In this document: positions 1,983 to 28,940 of the stretch, piece by piece
Layout of the letters: each line of letters opens with the position of its first letter
Numbering within the stretch: position 1 is the stretch's first letter
Assembly: GCA_022843825.1 (NCBI GenBank)
Contig: JALHMX010000004.1
Location: 1-64,000, forward strand
Source of the DNA: Pseudobdellovibrionaceae bacterium
GTDB lineage: Bacteria > Bdellovibrionota > Bdellovibrionia > Bdellovibrionales > Bdellovibrionaceae
Direction of reading: 5' to 3'
Length of the DNA stretch: 64,000 nucleotides
Notes under the pieces: generated by a model
The model's input: the letters and a program-made list of their open reading frames with translations, nothing else
What the model was told of the DNA's origin: nothing
Database searches by the model: none
Position numbers and translations under genes: made by a program

Positions 1983-3236
1983 ATGAGTAAATATCAAAGT
2001 GTCCGCGGAACCAGGGATCTTCTGCCTGACTTGAAGGGTCGTTTTCGCTATATCGAACAAACTGCATTTCAATGTGCGCAAAACTACGGCTTTAAAGAAA
2101 TTGAAACTCCTATTTTTGAATTCTCCGACGTTTTTCACAGATCCCTTGGCGAAACTTCTGATGCTGTCAGCAAAGAGACCTACACATTCACCGATCGTGG
2201 TGGCGAAAGCATTACGCTTAGGCCAGAAGGTACAGCTGGTGTGGTGCGCGCCTATATCAGCGAAGGCTTAGCCCAGCACAATCCAAATAAACTTTATTAT
2301 TACGGTCCGATGTTCAGATATGAGCGTCCGCAAAAAGGACGCTACCGTCAGTTTTATCAAATTGGTGTGGAAGTGCTGGGAATGGAAAACGCACTTACAG
2401 ATGTAGAGTGTTTGGATCTGGCGTGGACGTTTTTAAAGAAAATCAATCTTGCAGACAAGTGCACACTGGAGATCAACACGCTTGGGGATCAAGAATCACG
2501 CGAAAAATATCGTGAAGCGCTGGTGAAATATTTAACGCCATTAAAAACTCAGTTATCAGAAGATTCCCAAAAGCGTTTAGAAAAAAATCCACTACGCATT
2601 TTAGACAGCAAAGATGAAAACGATAAAAAATTAGTGCAAAGTGCGCCGAAGATGGATGAGTATTTATCTGAAGCTTCAAAAAAATTTTTCGCTGATGTTT
2701 TAGCTGGATTAGATACATTAAAAATTCCGTACAAAATAAATCCTAAACTTGTCAGAGGATTAGATTATTACTGCCACACCGTTTTTGAATTCGTCACCAC
2801 AGAGCTTGGTGCCCAAGGTGCCGTGTTGGCTGGTGGTCGCTACGACGGCTTAGCCGAAACTCTGGGGGGCACGAAAACTCCGGGCGTGGGCTGGGCCAGC
2901 GGCGTGGATCGGTTAGCTGAGCTGACGCTGATTAAAAATATCGAGATGCCACAAGCAGAAAAGCCCATCGCTTTTATATCGTTAGGGGATAAAGCGGTAT
3001 TAAAATCAGTGCAGTTGGCGAGCCAACTCAGACAAACCGGCACCTCGTGCGAGATTTTTATGACGGGCAACTTCAAAAAGAAAATGGAAAAAGCCAACAA
3101 GCTGGGTGTCGAAAAAGCCATTCTGATTTTCGAACAAGACGATGGCTCCCTCGAAATTAAAATTAAGAATTTCACTACAGGCGAAGAAACCGTTACTACG
3201 GAAGAAGCGGTAAAGTGCCAGGCAACCAAACTGTAA
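1983..3236 (+). CDS. hisS: Histidyl-tRNA synthetase
   Basis: 417 residues, standard length. It charges tRNA-His with histidine. Class II signs: the N-terminal VRGTRDLLP, motif 2 [20 protein letters not shown], the histidine motif [15 protein letters not shown], and motif 3 region [11 protein letters not shown], then a C-terminal anticodon-binding domain. The last codons run through a GTGCCAGGCAACC stretch resembling the REP core at 304, so the tail VKCQATKL may be repeat-derived. Confidence 0.97.
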
Positions 3237-3244
3237 GCGGTGAA

Positions 3245-3760
3245 TCAAATTAATTGGTTTTGAAGAATATTTTTTAAAAAAACTAATGAAACTAAAGGAA
3301 TAATCCCAGCAAACAGCGTATTGCCTTGATTTAAATAAGACCAAATAAAGGCTATGGCGACCGCTAGTATAAAATAACAAGAATATCTTTTTTCTAAGTT
3401 GTTTCTAGAGGCCGAGCTTTCAAAAACTCCTCTATGGGTAAAAAGTGTAGCTAGGATACAAACTATTCCCACCGAGAGGATGACTCCGGATTCGCGCAAC
3501 TGACCCATAAAGTTTAAAATAAAATTAATATTAAAGAAAAAACCTAAACCGCCAATGATAAGAAAAAGATTTATGCCACCGATCAAGCGATTAAGTCGGG
3601 TTTTAAGGAATGGCAGTAAAATGGCTAACTGAACAACGGCAGCTATCGCTCCGACTTGAAAAGCCCACGCCCATGCACTAACGGTTGATCCATAATATCT
3701 AGCGGTAAGAATAAATAAGGTCAGTGGTAAAAACTGAATCAGCGAGTATAAAAACCTCAT
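3245..3760 (-). CDS. Multi-pass membrane protein, septation protein A-like size, function unknown
   Basis: 171 residues with four to five hydrophobic helices, beginning MRFLYSLIQFLPL. The ATG at 3760 lies 1 bp after the orn stop, suggesting translational coupling; a longer frame starting inside orn is less likely. The helix pattern and length loosely resemble YciB/septation-protein-A-like inner-membrane proteins, but no diagnostic motif was found. Convergent with hisS (8-bp gap). Confidence 0.6.
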   Translation of the reverse strand: MRFLYSLIQFLPLTLFILTARYYGSTVSAWAWAFQVGAIAAVVQLAILLPFLKTRLNRLIGGINLFLIIGGLGFFFNINFILNFMGQLRESGVILSVGIVCILATLFTHRGVFESSASRNNLEKRYSCYFILAVAIAFIWSYLNQGNTLFAGIIPLVSLVFLKNILQNQLI

Positions 3761-3761
3761 T

Positions 3762-4319
3762 TTAAACTTGAATCTTATCCATATAGAATCGAAGCTCGCC
3801 AATGCTTTCGCGGATATCATCCAAGGCGCGGTGAGCGTTCTGTTTTTTGTAAACTAAATCAAGCTTATTATTAAAAATGACTTTCCACGAGCTCACATCC
3901 AGCACGCGGTAATGAAGGCGCTCGGAAAAACTTTTAAAATATTTATCAATAAACAATCGATCCTGTGCGATCGAATTTCCCGCTAAGATCGGCATATATT
4001 TTTTTTCTTTTTTCCAGTCTGGAAAGTGACGGTCCACCAAGGCATTCAGGTGATACTCAACTGACGATGGCTCCATACCCAGTGGAACTTTTGCGGTAAG
4101 ACCTGATTTTCCATGGTGCTCGGTATTCCATGCGTCCATATTATCTAAATAATGCTGGGGCTGCTTAACGATAGTTTCGAAAGTTTCCAGCTCTTTAAAG
4201 TTCATGTCCGTAATAATGCAGGCCACTTCCAAAATAACTTCTTTGGTCACATCCAGGCCTGACATTTCCATATCCAGCCAAAAAAGTTTTTCTACGCGAT
4301 CAGGCTTTTGCGGGTTCAT
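3762..4319 (-). CDS. orn: Oligoribonuclease
   Basis: 185 residues, the usual size. DEDDh 3'-5' exonuclease that degrades 2-5 nt RNAs to mononucleotides, including pGpG from cyclic-di-GMP turnover. Motif I is WLDMEMSGLD (Asp and Glu), motif II NSIAQDRLFIDKY, motif III AHRALDDIRESIGEL with catalytic His and Asp. It lies 5 bp after the HMA-domain gene on the same strand. Confidence 0.95.
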   Translation of the reverse strand: MNPQKPDRVEKLFWLDMEMSGLDVTKEVILEVACIITDMNFKELETFETIVKQPQHYLDNMDAWNTEHHGKSGLTAKVPLGMEPSSVEYHLNALVDRHFPDWKKEKKYMPILAGNSIAQDRLFIDKYFKSFSERLHYRVLDVSSWKVIFNNKLDLVYKKQNAHRALDDIRESIGELRFYMDKIQV

Positions 4320-4324
4320 AATTT

Positions 4325-4642
4325 TTATTTAATTTCTTTTTTGGTAATTTTATAATCGCCAGCCGCTTGAATGTTAGTCTCAACTAAAACTAAGTCAGCC
4401 TTAACATTCGGTTTATACTTAATGACAAGTGTTCCAATTTGCTTTTTAGCATCGAAAGCGGCAAACTCGCAGGATTCAAATTGCGCGGCCAATACAGCAT
4501 CGCCACACACTTTTTTAGTGATCATTTTTTTACAAGCCCCACAATGCATGCCTTCGATGGTCAAAGTTGCTGTTTCGGCAGCGGCGAAAACAGAGGTAAA
4601 GATAAGTCCTAAAAATGCAGTCAAAGCGATATATTGTTTCAT
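4325..4642 (-). CDS. Periplasmic heavy-metal-associated (HMA) domain protein, MerP/CopZ-like
   Basis: 105 residues: a signal peptide (residues 1-21, ending VFAAAE) and one ferredoxin-like HMA domain with the metal-binding loop GMHCGACKKM. Two further cysteines follow (VCGD, ESCEF), more than in a minimal MerP. It probably binds copper or a similar soft metal in the periplasm. No metal ATPase lies next to it; it is the first gene of a run toward orn. Confidence 0.82.
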   Translation of the reverse strand: MKQYIALTAFLGLIFTSVFAAAETATLTIEGMHCGACKKMITKKVCGDAVLAAQFESCEFAAFDAKKQIGTLVIKYKPNVKADLVLVETNIQAAGDYKITKKEIK

Positions 4643-4720
4643 AAAGTTAAGATACCGCGCGGTTATTTCTCAGTCAGTCCTTTTTTTTGCATTAAAAATG
4701 CGCTGCCTCCAAGAAAATGA

Positions 4721-4748
4721 TTGAATTTCAACTGAATATCTCTATATT
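4721..4748 (+). promoter_or_regulatory. Likely sigma-70-type promoter of tRNA-Asp
   Basis: TTGAAT at 4721-4726 and TATATT at 4743-4748 are spaced by 16 bp, placing a start about 20 bp upstream of the tRNA 5' end. Judged by eye against the TTGACA/TATAAT consensus. Confidence 0.4.
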
Positions 4749-4774
4749 TAGACGTTCATTATGTCTTTGACTAC

Positions 4775-4851
4775 GGAGTGGTAGTTAAGTTGGTTATAAC
4801 GTCCGCCTGTCACGCGGAAGGCCGCGGGTTCGAGTCCCGTTCACTCCGCCA
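4775..4851 (+). tRNA. tRNA-Asp (GTC)
   Basis: 77 nt folding as a standard cloverleaf: acceptor GGAGTGG pairing with TCACTCC (last pair G-U), a D-arm with GTTGG, anticodon stem TCCGC/GCGGA with loop CTGTCAC and anticodon GTC at 4809-4811, and a T-arm with GGTTCGAGTCC. CCA is encoded at 4849-4851. Eight T residues follow at once. The 3' end adjoins a small accessory islet, as is common for tRNA integration sites. Confidence 0.97.
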
Positions 4852-4856
4852 TTTTT
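4846..4856 (+). repeat. 11-bp direct repeat, left copy, in tRNA-Asp 3' end
   Basis: CCGCCATTTTT at the tRNA-Asp 3' end recurs at 6080-6090, bracketing the islet of about 1.2 kb. The match is short and T-rich, so an attachment-site reading is only tentative. Confidence 0.3.
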
Positions 4857-4858
4857 TT

Positions 4859-5056
4859 TCAAATTCATCCAATTATGGAAAGGGCGTTGGGGGAAAACTC
4901 ATCGATGAAGTTTCAAAGAAGGCTAAGGAGATGGGTATTGGTCACATCTATTGGTTAACCCATGAGAGCAACGCAACTGCTCGTAGGCTTTATGAGAAGA
5001 CTGCAAAGAATACGGGTTTTATAACTTATGTGAAGGTTGCTGCCTCAAAGCAATAA
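4859..5056 (+). pseudogene. C-terminal fragment of a GNAT acetyltransferase
   Basis: Translating from 4859 gives about 65 residues that match only the second half of a GNAT fold: the acetyl-CoA loop YGKGVGGKLIDEV (motif A), then MGIGHIYWLTHESNATARRLYEK, the usual end of the fold. The first 80 or so residues of a normal GNAT are absent; upstream is the tRNA and its T-run. With no start of its own this is a remnant, probably truncated when the islet formed behind tRNA-Asp. Confidence 0.75.
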
Positions 5057-5063
5057 GTTCTAA
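5052..5063 (+). repeat. 12-bp direct repeat, left copy
   Basis: AATAAGTTCTAA, repeated exactly at 6052-6063. Each copy is preceded by GC (with one extra A in the second) and lies at the end of a reading frame: the GNAT remnant here, the nucleotidyltransferase there. The pair brackets the winged-helix/nucleotidyltransferase unit. Confidence 0.5.
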
Positions 5064-5142
5064 TGTCGCCCAATGGGCCATTCACTCCACTAGACCAAAA
5101 TCTGTCGCAAATCGGTATAATATCTAAAAAAACATCATAAAT

Positions 5143-5172
5143 ATCGTACTATTTAGTAGTCTAATCGTACTA
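5143..5172 (+). promoter_or_regulatory. Likely operator: two ATCGTACTA repeats 21 bp apart
   Basis: ATCGTACTA occurs at 5143-5151 and again at 5164-5172, a start-to-start step of 21 bp or two helical turns, with ACTATTTAGT (a small palindrome) between. It lies 20 bp upstream of the winged-helix gene. This is what a self-regulating DNA-binding protein binding one face of DNA would need. Confidence 0.5.
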
Positions 5173-5192
5173 CTTTGTGTTAATGTTACATT

Positions 5193-5522
5193 ATGATAGA
5201 AAATCTTTTAGGAAACAAAACAGCAGAGAAAACTTTACTTTATATTGTCAATTATGGTGAAGGGCATACTTCAGGCATCGCTCAAACTTTTGATCTGCCT
5301 AAGTCACAGGTCAGAAAACAGCTTATTCGATTAGAAGCGGGTGGAATACTGGTGGGTCGAAATGTAGGAAACATTCGAATGTTCCAGATAAATCCGCGCT
5401 GTCCCTATAAAAAAGAATTGGAAGCCTTATTGGAAAAAGTGCTTTCTATGGTTTCTAAATCCGATCAAGAAAAATACTATCGTCAGCGTCGGCGTCCGCG
5501 CAGGACAGGTAAAGCCTTGTGA
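5193..5522 (+). CDS. Winged-helix DNA-binding protein, antitoxin/regulator-like
   Basis: 109 residues. The core (residues 10-65) is an ArsR/MarR-like winged helix: GIAQTFDLPKSQVRKQLIRLEAGGILV forms the helix-turn-helix, NVGNIRMFQINPRCPYK the wing. A basic tail (RQRRRPRRTGK) ends the protein. It overlaps the next frame by 4 bp (GTGA), a coupling typical of regulator/nucleotidyltransferase pairs such as AbiE-type or DUF6036 toxin-antitoxin units. It is probably the cognate repressor, acting at the repeats upstream. Confidence 0.7.
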   Translation: MIENLLGNKTAEKTLLYIVNYGEGHTSGIAQTFDLPKSQVRKQLIRLEAGGILVGRNVGNIRMFQINPRCPYKKELEALLEKVLSMVSKSDQEKYYRQRRRPRRTGKAL

Positions 5523-6048
5523 TTAAGATCAATAAAAAAATGACTTTAGAAAGCTTTGCTATCGCCGTGGCGGAAGCGCTTAAGAAAAAAGATATTGATG
5601 TCATTTTGACGGGTGGGGCTGTGGTTTCAATTTATTCAGCGGGTAAGTATGTGTCTAAAGACGCAGATTTTTAAGTACCACAGACCATCAAACCATTAAA
5701 CAGGCTATGCTTGAACTAGGGTTTAAAAATTTAGGAAAAGATTTTTATCATGATGACAGTTCTTTTACCGTAGAATTTCCCGGATACGATCTAGTTATTG
5801 GTGATGAGCCCATGAAACCCGAGGGAAAAATAAAGCATGGCCAGTTTACGTTAATACTTTTATCCCCCACTCAGTGTGTAATGGATCGGCTAGCTGCCTT
5901 TTATCATTGGAAAGACAGGCAAAGCTTGCAGCAGGCCATCATGGTAGCGAAAAATCATCCCGTTAAATTAAAAAGTATTGAAGCATGGTCAGATAAAGAA
6001 GGCATGCGTGATCGCTATGATTTTTTTATTCAGCAGCTAAAGAAGTAA
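5519..6048 (+). pseudogene. Nucleotidyltransferase (DUF6036/AbiEii-like) split by a -1 frameshift
   Basis: From GTG at 5519 the frame gives about 51 residues including LTGGAVVSIYS and SKDADF, the GG...DxD signature of nucleotidyltransferases, then hits TAA at 5672. One base back, the reading continues from 5671 as LSTTDHQTIKQAMLELGF and runs to 6048, about 176 residues in all. The break sits on a run of five T (GAT TTT TAA). It may be a real inactivating deletion, a sequencing error at a homopolymer, or slippage: tRNA-Phe on TTT could re-pair one base back. The active-site half is intact. Confidence 0.72.
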
Positions 6049-6051
6049 GCA

Positions 6052-6063
6052 AATAAGTTCTAA
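6052..6063 (+). repeat. 12-bp direct repeat, right copy
   Basis: Exact second copy of the 12-mer at 5052, starting 3 bp after the nucleotidyltransferase stop. Downstream, TTGGCCCGCCATTT loosely echoes TGGGCCATT behind the left copy, suggesting that a longer, diverged sequence was duplicated. Confidence 0.5.
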
Positions 6064-6079
6064 ACTCATCTCAGTTGGC

Positions 6080-6090
6080 CCGCCATTTTT
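6080..6090 (+). repeat. 11-bp direct repeat, right copy
   Basis: CCGCCATTTTT, matching the tRNA-Asp 3' end at 4846-4856. Possible right boundary of the islet; the match is short. Confidence 0.3.
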
Positions 6091-6169
6091 CTCTCGAATA
6101 AATTTAATTACTTAGATACGATTTTGTAGGTGAGGATAAGCTGGTCTCGAATTTCAGAAAGCAGACAAA

Positions 6170-6625
6170 ATGGAAAAAGTTTTCAAATCAGAATTAATCA
6201 TACAGCGTCCCATTAACGTAGTATTTGATTTTTTTTCTAAAGCCGAAAATCTGCAGCGGATTACGCCGCCCTCGCTTAATTTCAATATTGTAACCTCACA
6301 GCCGATTGAAATGAAAAAAGGTACATTGATTGATTACAAATTGAAAATTCGTGGAATCCCTTCAAAGTGGAAAACCTTGATTTCAGATTGGGACCCTCCG
6401 ATAAGTTTTACGGATACGCAACTTAAAGGTCCTTACAAAAAATGGGTGCACACGCACGAATTTGCAAAACTGAGCGAAAACTCAACCCGAATGATAGACA
6501 CGGTCGTTTATGAAGTGCCCTTTGGAGTTTTAGGAAGTGTAGTTGATTACTTGATTGTTCGTCATGAAATAGCAAACATATTTAAATACAGAAATAAAAC
6601 GATCTTGAAGTTTTTTGAAAGTTGA
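6170..6625 (+). CDS. SRPBCC (START-like) ligand-binding protein
   Basis: 151 residues, single SRPBCC domain: the start FKSELIIQRPINVVFDFFSKAENLQRITPP is the characteristic first strand and helix, and WVHTHEFAKL with DTVVYEVPFG forms the later strands. Family members bind hydrophobic ligands in a helix-grip pocket; the ligand cannot be told from sequence. Similar proteins are often annotated as cyclase/dehydrase-like. It stands alone, 120 bp after the islet. Confidence 0.8.
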   Translation: MEKVFKSELIIQRPINVVFDFFSKAENLQRITPPSLNFNIVTSQPIEMKKGTLIDYKLKIRGIPSKWKTLISDWDPPISFTDTQLKGPYKKWVHTHEFAKLSENSTRMIDTVVYEVPFGVLGSVVDYLIVRHEIANIFKYRNKTILKFFES

Positions 6626-6743
6626 ATAATAGGTATAAAAGTCCTATTTAATAGAACAGAATAAGCTTTAAAAAGGTAAAAAATGGCCCAATTTTAAACC
6701 TTTTCTATAGACGTTTGTTAAAATTCACTTTAGCATTTTAGCT

Positions 6744-7973
6744 ATGAGATTGAGATTTGCAGTCATCTTCTGCTTAATTAGTATGTTAATTATTGGAAGT
6801 ATTTCTATTTTTTATAAGTCAAAACAGAAAATTATAAATTTTGAAGAAACTGCGCAGGCAGAAACGGAACTTAATGAGGTTGTACCTATAGAGCAACGCT
6901 ATCCCTATGTTATCGAACCAAGGGCGACATTTTCAGAATCTCTTCGTAAATTAGATATATCCCCTAGGGACATTCATGACATCGTGGTGGCGGCTAAGCC
7001 GATAAAAGATTTAGGTCGTTTGCATCCTGGGATAAGATTTCAAATTTTACACGCTCCTAACGAAATTGGAAATTTAGTAAGTATTCGAATTAAATTATCG
7101 CCACAAGAGGTGCTGCTGGTACAAAAAGAATTAAACACCTGGGTGGCCGAAAAAATCACAAAACAGATCCAAACCAAAGTGGCTACTTTTCGGGGTCTTG
7201 TGAAAAGTTCTTTATGGGAGTCTGCGCTTGAGGCCGGAATGAATCCCACCATTATTGCAGAACTGGCAGAAATTTTTGCCTGGCAGGTGGATTTTTCACG
7301 GGAAGTACAGGTAGGGGATCGCTGGCGGTTGTCGGTCGAAGAAGAATTTGTAAAGGGTGAAAGTATTGGGTGGGGATCCATTTTGTCGGCAGAATACATT
7401 AACGGGGCAAACACTTATACGGCTATACTGTTTCGCAAAGAAAAAGAAGATATGGGCTATTTTGCTCCGGACGGAACCAGTCTAAAAAGAGTTTTTTTGA
7501 AAAGTCCGATTCAGTATGGAAGAATTTCTTCTCGATTTTCAAAAAGACGTTTCCATCCGGTTTTAAAAGTGGCGCGACCTCATAATGGTGTTGATTACGC
7601 AGCACCAACAGGAACCCCTATCCGCGCTGTAGGAGATGGCATGATTGCCTTTGTTGGTAGAAGTGGTGGAGGTGGAAATGTCATTACAGTCCGTCATAAT
7701 TCGACGTACACGACAAGCTATAAGCATTTAAGTCGTTTTGCCAAAGGCCTCCGTAAAGGATCATCAGTTCAGCAAGGACAAACGATTGGTTATGTCGGCG
7801 CAACTGGTTTGGCGTCAGGTCCGCATTTGCATTTTGAGTTTTTTGTAAATGGTAGGTACGTCGATCCCCTAAGCCAAAAATTTCCGACGGCAGAGCCTAT
7901 CCCCCCAGATAAGCTCGTCAATTTTTTAGAGATGAAAGATAAGTTTTTTGCCTATTTGCCTGATTGGATTTAG
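6744..7973 (+). CDS. M23-family murein endopeptidase, MepM-like
   Basis: 409 residues: an N-terminal membrane anchor or signal (6-24), a middle region typical of OapA/MepM-like proteins (about 45-260, including a LysM-like start ATFSESLRKLDISPRDIHDIV), and a C-terminal LytM domain. Zinc ligands are visible in RPHNGVDYAAPTGTPI (His, Asp) and GPHLHFEF (HxH). Such enzymes cut peptide cross-links of peptidoglycan in the periplasm. No good ribosome site precedes the ATG. Confidence 0.92.
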   Translation: MRLRFAVIFCLISMLIIGSISIFYKSKQKIINFEETAQAETELNEVVPIEQRYPYVIEPRATFSESLRKLDISPRDIHDIVVAAKPIKDLGRLHPGIRFQILHAPNEIGNLVSIRIKLSPQEVLLVQKELNTWVAEKITKQIQTKVATFRGLVKSSLWESALEAGMNPTIIAELAEIFAWQVDFSREVQVGDRWRLSVEEEFVKGESIGWGSILSAEYINGANTYTAILFRKEKEDMGYFAPDGTSLKRVFLKSPIQYGRISSRFSKRRFHPVLKVARPHNGVDYAAPTGTPIRAVGDGMIAFVGRSGGGGNVITVRHNSTYTTSYKHLSRFAKGLRKGSSVQQGQTIGYVGATGLASGPHLHFEFFVNGRYVDPLSQKFPTAEPIPPDKLVNFLEMKDKFFAYLPDWI

Positions 7974-22607: not shown

Positions 22608-22725
22608 GCTTTCTATTTAAGCTGCAGCTAGTATTTTGGTCAATATTTTTTCTTAACCAAAATCAAACAATTGCATATAGAATATTGTCGTAGAATCTGT
22701 GTATTGCGAACTGTTTGGGGTGGGC

Positions 22726-23391
22726 GTGCATACAAGTTTTTCCAGAAAATTAGCCAGTGAATTTTTAGGGACGTTGTTTTTGTTAACGATTGTTGTTGGC
22801 TCTGGAATTATGGGCGAGCGCGCGGCTGCGGGAAATGATGGTATTGCCTTAATGGCCAATTCCATTGCCACTGGATGTGGGCTCATTGTTTTGATTTGGA
22901 TATTCGGTCCACTTTCTGGGGCGCATTTTAATCCCGTCGTGACGATGATTAGTTATTTGCAGGGACACCATAGTAAAAAAGAAAGTGCACTATATATTTT
23001 AACTCAAATTGTCGCAGCAATCTGCGGTGTTCTTGTGGCTCATATTATGTTTAATGAGGACCTTGTTACTTTTTCTTCTAAGTCCCGCGCAGGTTTTCCA
23101 TTGATGTTCAGTGAATTTGTCGCCGCCTTTGGACTTATTATGGTTATTCGTGGGCTAAATAAAAATCACAATGATAAAATACCTTTCGCTGTGGGGGCCT
23201 ATATCACAGCGGCGTACTGGTTTACCTCATCGACTTCCTTTGCCAATCCCGCAGTGACCATTGCTCGGGCATTAACGAATACTTTTTCAGGAATAGCTTA
23301 CAATAATGTATTGGGTTTTATATTGGCGCAGGTTTTAGGGGCGTTGGCTGCGGAATTGACGTTTCGTTGGTTTCTGAAGGAGTTAAAGTGA
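22726..23391 (+). CDS. Aquaporin family channel, AqpS-like (arsenic-linked)
   Basis: About 221 residues with six membrane helices and two half-helix loops. Loop B is SGAHFNPVVT (NPV instead of NPA), loop E is SFANPAVTIARALTNTFSGI, a form typical of ars-operon aquaporins where the usual pore Arg after NPA is Val. In Sinorhizobium, AqpS lets arsenite made by ArsC flow out. Here arsC overlaps the stop by 4 bp, supporting that role. GTG starts at 22699, 22720 and 22726 are possible; the last best fits family length. Confidence 0.87.
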   Translation: MHTSFSRKLASEFLGTLFLLTIVVGSGIMGERAAAGNDGIALMANSIATGCGLIVLIWIFGPLSGAHFNPVVTMISYLQGHHSKKESALYILTQIVAAICGVLVAHIMFNEDLVTFSSKSRAGFPLMFSEFVAAFGLIMVIRGLNKNHNDKIPFAVGAYITAAYWFTSSTSFANPAVTIARALTNTFSGIAYNNVLGFILAQVLGALAAELTFRWFLKELK

Positions 23392-23786
23392 TAAAAGTTA
23401 TTTTTGCCTGTGTGCATAGTGCGGGACGATCGCAAATGGCCGCAGCATTTTTTAATCAGCTAACTGATCCGAGTCAATTCAGGGCAACGTCGGCTGGAAC
23501 TGAACCAGCAGCGAAAGTTCACCCTGAAGTACTTACGGTGATGAATGAAATTGGAGTAGATCTTTCCTTGGCTAAACCCACGCTATTAACACAAGAGTTA
23601 GCTAAAGATGCGCGAATGATTGTGACGATGGGGTGTGGAGAGAATTGTCCCTATGTTCCCGGAGTTCAAATTATCGATTGGTCGTTAACTGATCCTAAGG
23701 GTCAAGGTCTTGAGCAAGTTCGTTTGATCCGTGATGAGATCAAACGGCTTGTGGTTGATTTACTAAGAGAAAAAGGATGGAATTAA
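23388..23786 (+). CDS. arsC: Arsenate reductase, low-molecular-weight phosphatase type
   Basis: 132 residues from GTG 23388. The catalytic loop CVHSAGRSQ (C-X5-R) is near the N-terminus, followed by SAGTEPA and a C-terminal DWSLTDPKG with the general acid Asp. Extra cysteines MGCGENCPY match the redox cascade of thioredoxin-linked arsenate reductases. It turns arsenate into arsenite, which the channel gene before it can release. No arsR-like regulator is adjacent. Confidence 0.92.
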   Translation: MIKVIFACVHSAGRSQMAAAFFNQLTDPSQFRATSAGTEPAAKVHPEVLTVMNEIGVDLSLAKPTLLTQELAKDARMIVTMGCGENCPYVPGVQIIDWSLTDPKGQGLEQVRLIRDEIKRLVVDLLREKGWN

Positions 23787-26374: not shown

Positions 26375-26641
26375 TCATTTTTGTTTAAAGCCTAAGATAT
26401 CCACGTAAGTAATGCCCTTAGCTATTCCTGAAGAGGGTCGAGCATTTTGACCTTTAATTTGAATTTTTCCAGTATTAAAAAGCTCTTTAAATGCTGTCCT
26501 AGAAATTTCTCGCAAAGTTAAGTTTTCATTTTGCTGCTTGATGGCTTGCAATAAAATATTATCTAAACGATTTTCAGGTCGGTTTAAATCTAAAACGATA
26601 CGAAATGAATTGGCCGGCAGCGGAGGAATATTTTCAGACAT
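26375..26641 (-). CDS. Small S4-like putative RNA-binding protein
   Basis: 88 residues. NRLDNILLQAIKQQ, ISRTAFKELFNTGKIQIKGQNARPSSGIAKGITYVDI resembles an S4 domain (R-L-D start, a helix, then G-x-I-x-I-x-G and a P-S-x-x-I-x-x-G turn). The match is by pattern only. Its start overlaps the HExxH gene by 8 bp, so both are made from one message. Confidence 0.5.
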   Translation of the reverse strand: MSENIPPLPANSFRIVLDLNRPENRLDNILLQAIKQQNENLTLREISRTAFKELFNTGKIQIKGQNARPSSGIAKGITYVDILGFKQK

Positions 26642-27521
26642 CAGAGTCTCCTATAAATAATGAAAGATTAGAGATTAAATCATTTAAATTTGTATCAGTC
26701 TTGATCAGTTTTAAGTAATCAAAGCTTAAAGCTTGTTTAACTGAAGCCTCTAGACCGTTTAATCTTAAATACATCTCAGTGGTCGTATAACGAAAACGTG
26801 CATTTAAGGCAAAAGCGTTTTGTGCTAAATTTTTAAAGACATGGGCTTCTGAGGGAAGTTCAAAACGGCTGAGTTCAAAAATCTTTTTAAAATCATTTTC
26901 ATGCAGACGATCATTAAGAAAATTACTATGTAAGTAACAAAGTAACATAAATTTAAAAACTGAAGTAGAGCCGTGCTTTTCTAGGGCTTTTTTTAAATTT
27001 GTGCGATCTTCAAAGACTGTAAAATAAGAATTAACTTCTAAGAATAATTTATGAGTCATTTCCTGTGCATCTGCTATGGCAAAAAACTCACATGTATTGG
27101 CGAAGGACTCTTCGATCAGCATAACCATAAGCTGACGAGGCAGGTCCGTCGCTTTAAAGCTGAAGGATCGCGCTACGGCGTGACTGGATTCGTGAAAAAC
27201 ATAATTTGGCTTTAAATTATCAACAATGTGATCCCATTCTAACGGAGTTTTAGAGTGCTGATTTAAGTTTTTAAGCGTAGTTACGTTATTAACATAAGGA
27301 ATAGTTTTTGTATTTAAAATTTTCTCTAACTGCCCCATAGGAAAAGCGATATAGTCTGGGTTGATGTCATCAGAGTACACAAAACCTAATGACAAAGCTT
27401 TTTGACGAATGCGACGAAACACTTTGTTGTGCTGAAGCAAGTATCCGTCACCTAAACTCAGCTTAAGGCAACCGTTAGAAATAGCTTCATCATGTTTTGC
27501 TAACAGTACGGAAAGTTTCAT
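26634..27521 (-). CDS. Putative HExxH zinc metalloprotein
   Basis: 295 residues, no signal peptide. HESSH at 110-114 is followed 23 residues later by EESFANTCEFF (Glu137/138), the spacing of gluzincin peptidases. The rest is helical and matches no family I know. It could be a cytosolic peptidase or a structural relative. It precedes and overlaps the S4-like gene. Confidence 0.55.
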   Translation of the reverse strand: MKLSVLLAKHDEAISNGCLKLSLGDGYLLQHNKVFRRIRQKALSLGFVYSDDINPDYIAFPMGQLEKILNTKTIPYVNNVTTLKNLNQHSKTPLEWDHIVDNLKPNYVFHESSHAVARSFSFKATDLPRQLMVMLIEESFANTCEFFAIADAQEMTHKLFLEVNSYFTVFEDRTNLKKALEKHGSTSVFKFMLLCYLHSNFLNDRLHENDFKKIFELSRFELPSEAHVFKNLAQNAFALNARFRYTTTEMYLRLNGLEASVKQALSFDYLKLIKTDTNLNDLISNLSLFIGDSDV

Positions 27522-27545: not shown

Positions 27546-28340
27546 CTAATAGCCAAATAAAAACTTTAAGGCTTCCGGAAGTCTTTGAGCCCAGTAATAT
27601 TCGCTGTGGCTTGCCCCTGATTGTATAATCATTTTGATCTTACTTGGATCAGCGTATTGAACGATAAGCTGATTTTTGAGTTGAACGACATCTTGGGGGC
27701 GTTCACCACCAGCGGTGCCGCAATCGATGTAAATTTTAACGGGTAAATCCGTTGCATTTTTATAGATCGATAAAATGGATTTGTTGTTCCACCAAATAGA
27801 GGGTGAAAGAGCAGCGATTAGGCCGAAGTCTTTTGAGTACTTAGCGCCGGCATATAAAGAAACCAGCCCTCCTAAAGAGGAACCCATGATGGCCGTTGAT
27901 TCTCGATCAGTTTTGGTTTGAAAATCCTGGTTAATTTTTGGCATTAGGTCTGTGGAAATATTTTTTAAATAAATGTCTGCTGCATTATTAGGGGTGTATT
28001 CGGCGGTACGGTCTGGCGTATTGTCGATGGCGACAACGATGAGCGGCTGTATTTGTTTATTCTGAATCAAAATGTTTAAGGTCTTTTCAGCGTTCCAGGT
28101 TTGACCCATGAAGGCTCGCTCTGGATCAAAAAGATTTTGTCCATCATGGACATACAAAACAGGGTATCGTGTAGACTTATTTAAAGAATATCCTGGCGGC
28201 AAATAAACATAGATATCACGAGAATAAACAGAGTCAGAAGGAAGATAATTTTTTAAGAATAGCGTAAATTTGCCATCCTGTGCCCACGCACTCATAGCCG
28301 TTAAGAGTACCCCTGCAAAAACTAAAAGTTTTTTACTCAT
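27546..28340 (-). CDS. Secreted esterase, alpha/beta hydrolase (esterase D type)
   Basis: 264 residues: signal peptide (1-20, ending SAWAQ), then a PF00756-type fold with RDIYVYLPPGY, YPVLYVHDGQNLFD, the nucleophile elbow GSSLGG, and SGASHSEYYW with the catalytic His. Similar proteins hydrolyse sugar esters or siderophores; the substrate is unknown. Separated by 24 bp from the HExxH gene on the same strand. Confidence 0.88.
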   Translation of the reverse strand: MSKKLLVFAGVLLTAMSAWAQDGKFTLFLKNYLPSDSVYSRDIYVYLPPGYSLNKSTRYPVLYVHDGQNLFDPERAFMGQTWNAEKTLNILIQNKQIQPLIVVAIDNTPDRTAEYTPNNAADIYLKNISTDLMPKINQDFQTKTDRESTAIMGSSLGGLVSLYAGAKYSKDFGLIAALSPSIWWNNKSILSIYKNATDLPVKIYIDCGTAGGERPQDVVQLKNQLIVQYADPSKIKMIIQSGASHSEYYWAQRLPEALKFLFGY

Positions 28341-28405: not shown

Positions 28406-28747
28406 CTATTGACAGGTAAATTCAACAAAATTATACATGGCGCTATTTCGATGTGACCCACCTACAAAAATCCCACCCATACCCATACCAACCCCGGTGC
28501 CAACACCACTTGATGCGCCAGTTTCATCTCGTGCTTGATACTCTTTTGTGATTTGATAGTTTCCTTCGCAAAAATTGCGTGCTTGTTTATCAACTTCTTG
28601 AAGGTACTTGGATCTGCTTTTTTCACTTGAAGCTGGTGCATAGCGAACTACAGCCTGCTTTGTAGGCGCAAGATCCTTTCGCACAAATTCAACGGTCGTA
28701 CATCCAGCAAAAGCAACAAGGGCAGTCCAGTAAACTATTTTTTTCAT
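28406..28747 (-). CDS. Small lipoprotein, glycine-rich centre
   Basis: 113 residues from ATG 28747, which has AGGAGA 7 bp upstream. Lipobox FAGC ends the signal; the middle has a glycine stretch GVGTGVGMGMGG, and FCEGNYQ with the terminal FTCQ suggest a disulfide. No family recognised. Stands 66 bp after the esterase start region, on the same strand. Confidence 0.65.
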   Translation of the reverse strand: MKKIVYWTALVAFAGCTTVEFVRKDLAPTKQAVVRYAPASSEKSRSKYLQEVDKQARNFCEGNYQITKEYQARDETGASSGVGTGVGMGMGGIFVGGSHRNSAMYNFVEFTCQ

Positions 28748-28940
28748 TTGAAAATCTCCTGTTAATTGAAACACATCTAATAATAAGCAATCTTTATTCC
28801 TAGTATGTTAGCTGTATAGAAGATTTAAGGAATGCAATGGGAATTATTGCCCCGCATACAGATGTTTAATAATTAATTAGACTAGAAAAATCTGAAAGAA
28901 TTCGATAAGTTTAACTGATAAAAAAATAGTGGAGTAGTTC

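Follow-up and report, generated by a model that had tools for sequence, protein, structure and literature searches.

Gene organization of the locus

Two overlapping genes on the reverse strand occupy positions 26375 to 27521 of the window, by which we mean the whole 64,000-nt stretch of DNA that was analyzed. They encode proteins of 295 and 88 amino acids and, as the initial annotation had described, overlap by 8 bp. The larger carries an HExxH metal-site motif and is referred to here as the HExxH protein; the smaller consists of an S4 domain. The genes and the signals at their junction are as follows.

27546-28340, minus strand: putative esterase gene (PF00756, Pfam E=3.8e-26), co-directional and 24 bp upstream of the HExxH gene
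26634-27521, minus strand: HExxH gene, encoding 295 amino acids, mostly alpha-helical and of no known family, as judged from the ORF, its relatives and an AF2 model
26634-26652, minus strand: 8-bp overlap (26634-26641) and AGGAG ribosome-binding site (26648-26652), read from the sequence
26375-26641, minus strand: S4 gene, encoding an 88-aa stand-alone S4-domain protein (AF2 pLDDT 84, match to RluD)

The AGGAG ahead of the S4 start codon falls inside the 3' end of the HExxH gene. The esterase gene is probably carried on one transcript with the pair, and it was not found in the flanks of other HExxH-S4 pairs. From the other side, a DUF4267 gene converges on the two genes. Additionally, a gene for a 122-aa lipoprotein-like protein lies at 28406-28774 and shares about 50% identity with its counterparts in genomes G044 and G054. 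Further away, at 22699-23786, an aquaporin-like gene overlaps a gene for an ArsC-type low-molecular-weight phosphatase, which by eye appears to be an ordinary arsenic detoxification pair.

Candidate metal site, distribution and predicted fold of the HExxH protein

The motif HESSH was located at residues 110-114 and a pair of glutamates at 137/138, exactly where they had been placed initially. The codons of the candidate metal ligands are given below.

27180-27194, minus strand: codons H110-E111-S-S-H114, the HExxH metal-site motif, with H110, E111 and H114 invariant in 50/50 homologs
27108-27110, minus strand: codon of E138, the presumed third metal ligand, invariant in 50/50 homologs and 24 residues past H114

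Across 50 family members, G24, D25, H110, E111, H114, E138 (the invariant Glu of the EE pair) and F243 never vary, and N142 and E145 are almost invariant. HExxH arises in 2.1% of shuffles of the 295-aa protein, so the motif by itself is weak evidence; that 50 of 50 homologs keep it, even at identities as low as about 24%, greatly exceeds chance expectation. Homologs differ in the length of the H114-E138 loop, indicating that the helix with E138 is conserved for its own sake. Inspection of the N-terminus (MKLSVLLAKHDEAISNG...) by eye revealed no export signal, in agreement with the initial annotation.

Relatives of the HExxH protein were detected in 47 of 369 Bdellovibrionota genomes, including 14/14 genomes of the window's genus (the window genome itself is 2.4 Mb), and in just 2/24 genomes of genus g4, which includes B. 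bacteriovorus kdesi. Outside the phylum, a scan of genome contigs recovered the family in bins labeled Bryobacteraceae and Streptomyces griseus only, and such labels are unreliable, since the 'Streptomyces griseus' bin appears to correspond to G029, a genome from the window's own family. The wide alignment of the HExxH family (A3) was too divergent to use in the collection scans. Viral contigs and plasmids were scanned and contained no relative of the HExxH family; a mobile origin of the gene was therefore rejected. Among the Bdellovibrionota, Ca. Bdellovibrio qaytius and P. exovorus JSS have been described as epibiotic predators (PMC11656739).

The AF2 model of the 295-aa protein is confident (pLDDT 94.1, pTM 0.93) and almost all-helical. 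Specifically, helix 108-120 carries HExxH and the next helix, 127-151, carries E138; the only strands are two of 3 residues each (48-50 and 73-75). The classical zincin fold, in which a beta sheet packs above the active-site helix, is absent from this model. Sequence searches against Pfam, NCBIfam, PHROGs, PADLOC and PDB gave nothing above noise, and the best Foldseek hits had E values of 0.21 (PDB) and 0.45 (BFVD). The top VIA-align matches (Z 4.1) were nuclear receptor ligand domains, a likeness that was set aside as common helical packing. Thus none of the database and fold searches yielded a sequence or fold relative with known activity. Taking sequence and model together, the HExxH protein is best read as representing a putative new family of mainly alpha-helical metalloenzymes in the Bdellovibrionota.

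The S4 protein and the retention of the gene pair

The S4-like pattern noticed earlier in the small protein was borne out by fold comparison, in which the best match of its model was the S4 domain of RluD (Z 6.7, rmsd 3.5, 68 residues), with further matches to Hsp15 (Z 3.8), RqcP (Z 3.6) and many S4 ribosomal proteins. With this fold and with HExxH conserved in homologs, neither of the two outcomes that the initial annotation had set as refuting it was observed. RluD is a 23S rRNA pseudouridine synthase, whereas the 88-aa protein resembles its S4 domain and is without a catalytic domain. In a profile search against PDB sequences, RqcP (RqcP/YabO, 7aqc_Y) and Hsp15 scored best. At the PF01479 gathering score, the window protein was not matched, and 9/28 relatives were (best E 0.0047). 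Relatives occur in 46/144 genomes of the class.

Like RqcP (YabO) and Hsp15, the protein is a stand-alone single S4 domain of about 86-90 amino acids. By published criteria (PMC11317155), it appears to match RqcP at Arg2, Asp4 and Arg16 (B. subtilis numbering), of which Arg2 and Arg16 are essential 23S rRNA contacts (PMC11317155). The corresponding codons are these.

26561-26569, minus strand: codons R25-L-D27 of the S4 protein, taken as RqcP Arg2 and Asp4
26498-26500, minus strand: codon R48 of the S4 protein, an invariant residue that the profile pairs with RqcP Arg16

R25, D27 and R48 are invariant, the first two in 28/28 relatives; the equivalence of R25/D27 with Arg2/Asp4 is taken from the common RLD pattern, as the profile alignment begins after RLD. 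Unlike RqcP, the family is without the K14-R15-R16 (KRR) motif and has ISR or ITR at the aligned place. Unlike both RqcP and Hsp15, it has a segment between the two arginines that is 9 residues longer and a conserved proline-rich N-terminal tail, in which P6, P9, S12 and R14 are invariant. This tail was considered as a substrate of the HExxH enzyme, an idea that was rejected since genomes lacking the HExxH gene conserve the tail just as well.

The window genome has five PF01479 matches, each within an open frame of 212-406 aa, and no PF13275 match, so that the 88-aa protein is the sole stand-alone S4 protein detected in it. A scan with NFACT_N for RqcH returned one match of 22.7 bits (cut-off 31) in a 285-aa frame (G000:C23:12557-12763, L224), possibly a divergent RqcH-like fragment. 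The most likely target of the S4 protein, with its rRNA-contact-type residues, is rRNA, either in the ribosome or in a precursor. The initial annotation had imagined the peptidase and its partner acting at ribosomes; for the S4 protein alone such action can be inferred.

The HExxH and S4 genes are adjacent in G000, G044, G045, G052, G053, G054 and G064, and these adjacent pairs form one clade in the tree (base support 98/93). The gene order has flipped once, in G064, where the overlap is 4 bp. In the sampled pairs, the sister pair G045/G053 aside, the two genes are nearly the sole similarity over 14-20 kb, the exceptions being the 122-aa lipoprotein-like gene (G000, G044 and G054), a DUF188-like gene (G000 and G054) and a few low-identity paralogs. 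Outside this clade, the two genes are unlinked. Over 66 genomes of the family, both genes were present in 24, the HExxH gene only in 6, the S4 gene only in 18 and neither in 18 (Fisher p=0.02), whereas the counts without genus g1 (10/6/18/18) were not significant (Fisher p=0.55). Hence, the S4 protein is no general partner of the HExxH protein, and the proposal of a general HExxH-S4 system was rejected. The part of the proposed pairing that stood is narrower: the link is real and limited to one clade, in which the pair has been retained amid reshuffled surroundings.

How this retention should be understood is less certain. The genes would have become adjacent in that clade and translationally coupled; selection would then have kept the pair together, the two proteins probably serving a common process there. 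The strongest alternative, which we regard as a real but somewhat improbable one, is that the pair is a conserved expression unit only, its proteins working separately after an adjacency that arose once by chance. The confinement of all adjacent pairs to one clade and the lack of significant co-occurrence outside genus g1 speak for it, as do the other neighbors of the S4 gene elsewhere, which were named by eye from sequence as ABC-F ATPase, DEAD-box helicase and DTW-domain genes. Against it, the pair has outlasted the exchange of nearly everything else within 10 kb and also the change of order in G064.

Proposed function of the pair and comparison with known HExxH enzymes

Our preferred explanation combines a Bdellovibrionota-restricted helical metalloenzyme acting on peptides or proteins, an rRNA-binding S4 partner and a common process in one clade; taken as a whole, we give it an even chance of being correct. 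The 295-aa protein would be the founding example of a cytosolic family, most likely holding one metal ion through H110, H114 and E138, with E111 as the presumptive general base or a second-shell residue. Several divergent members lie in gene clusters that resemble those for peptide modification, which makes a peptide or protein the enzyme's most likely substrate.

In G359, the family member adjoins an aKG-HExxH gene (54 bits, TIGR04267 cut-off 40) and overlaps a JmjC_2 oxygenase gene. These three genes belong to a RiPP-like cluster (L125, G359:C30:6000-14500, 2753-6088) with a 70-aa peptide containing two near-identical repeats (LVDEVFGESRVNGVIIDI); ABC and MFS transporter-like genes are close by. 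Close to the second G054 copy are an Asp_Arg_Hydrox gene (Asp/Asn hydroxylase-like) and a gene with a Hint domain. G136 has two paralogous HExxH genes, each overlapping a PP-loop-like gene (L128, 3408-4406 with 2483-3415; L131, 3620-4579 with 4569-5594), and a radical SAM gene is near one of them; the PP-loop-like genes show weak likeness to asparagine synthase or QueC. G321 has one copy with a twitch radical SAM gene (368 bits, cut-off 170) nearby and another that adjoins methyltransferases. A second, divergent copy in G044 (L147, G044:C1:2611000-2624000, 5880-7732) overlaps a 299-aa gene of unknown function among subtilase-like, GDSL-lipase-like and FhuF-like genes. These neighborhoods suggest peptide or protein substrates for the divergent members. 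For the core family, we infer the same with more reserve, as the divergent members sit on long branches and may differ in function.

The initial annotation favored a gluzincin peptidase. Peptidase families M3 and M32 of clan MA are largely helical, and M2 is a clan-MA gluzincin with a helical fold; a small helical relative of this kind, a true zinc peptidase that trims cytosolic proteins and is brought to ribosomes by its S4 partner, is an unlikely alternative. What stood of that claim is the position of HExxH in a helix and, at the level of sequence, the invariant downstream Glu. In common with M3 and M32, the protein has HExxH, a Glu about 24-25 residues downstream (24 past H114 here) and a second acidic residue 7 further (E138...E145), which recalls the spacing in this phylum's M3 (HEFGH...ELPSQIMENW) and M32 (HEAGH...HESQSRFWEN) proteins. 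Unlike them, it is about half the size and has no known peptidase signature beyond HExxH; among the fold matches listed for the model there was no solved peptidase, and Foldseek ranked no M3/M32-type fold. Moreover, hhalign aligned the family with M3 and M32 over just 15 columns round HExxH (probability 1.8% and 0.5%), compared with 183 columns between M3 and M32. With a near-all-helical model and a likeness to M3/M32 confined to the motif, 'peptidase' is just one option.

A further alternative, which we consider improbable, is an iron/2-oxoglutarate peptide oxygenase that either converged on the aKG-HExxH hydroxylases of RiPP pathways or shares very remote ancestry with them. The idea draws on the peptide hydroxylase and radical SAM genes beside divergent members, above all the aKG-HExxH gene and repeat peptide in G359, and on the precedent that aKG-HExxH proteins were themselves formerly annotated as metallopeptidases (PMC12636437). 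However, a gene beside a peptide cluster might equally encode a leader peptidase. Neither the 295-aa protein nor the window genome gave a TIGR04267 match, and hhalign aligned the family with TIGR04267 proteins over 17 columns (probability 0.7%). The boldest extension of the preferred reading seems to us very unlikely. It posits an undescribed helical HExxH class that acts on peptides by modification or cleavage, with divergent members belonging to peptide natural-product clusters; the enzyme of the Pseudobdellovibrio lineage would team up with an S4 factor bound to the ribosome, their targets being nascent chains or ribosomal proteins.

HExxH is customarily taken to mean 'zinc peptidase'. Despite that reading, one recently characterized HExxH family, the aKG-HExxH peptide beta-hydroxylases (TIGR04267 / IPR026337; ChlH, PDB 8s5f), proved to be iron oxygenases; they are common in Bdellovibrionota, with 119/359 genomes above cut-off. 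The family described here has in common with them HExxH and, for some divergent members, peptide-modification surroundings, and it is distinguished by being without the SPWR...RP segment that comes after their HExxH. If our reading is correct, the HExxH-S4 pair offers a simple way to ask whether such an enzyme acts at the ribosome, and an enzyme type would be added to the predatory bacteria. A third, mainly helical HExxH family without known relatives would then mean that, once again, the motif alone fails to define the chemistry.
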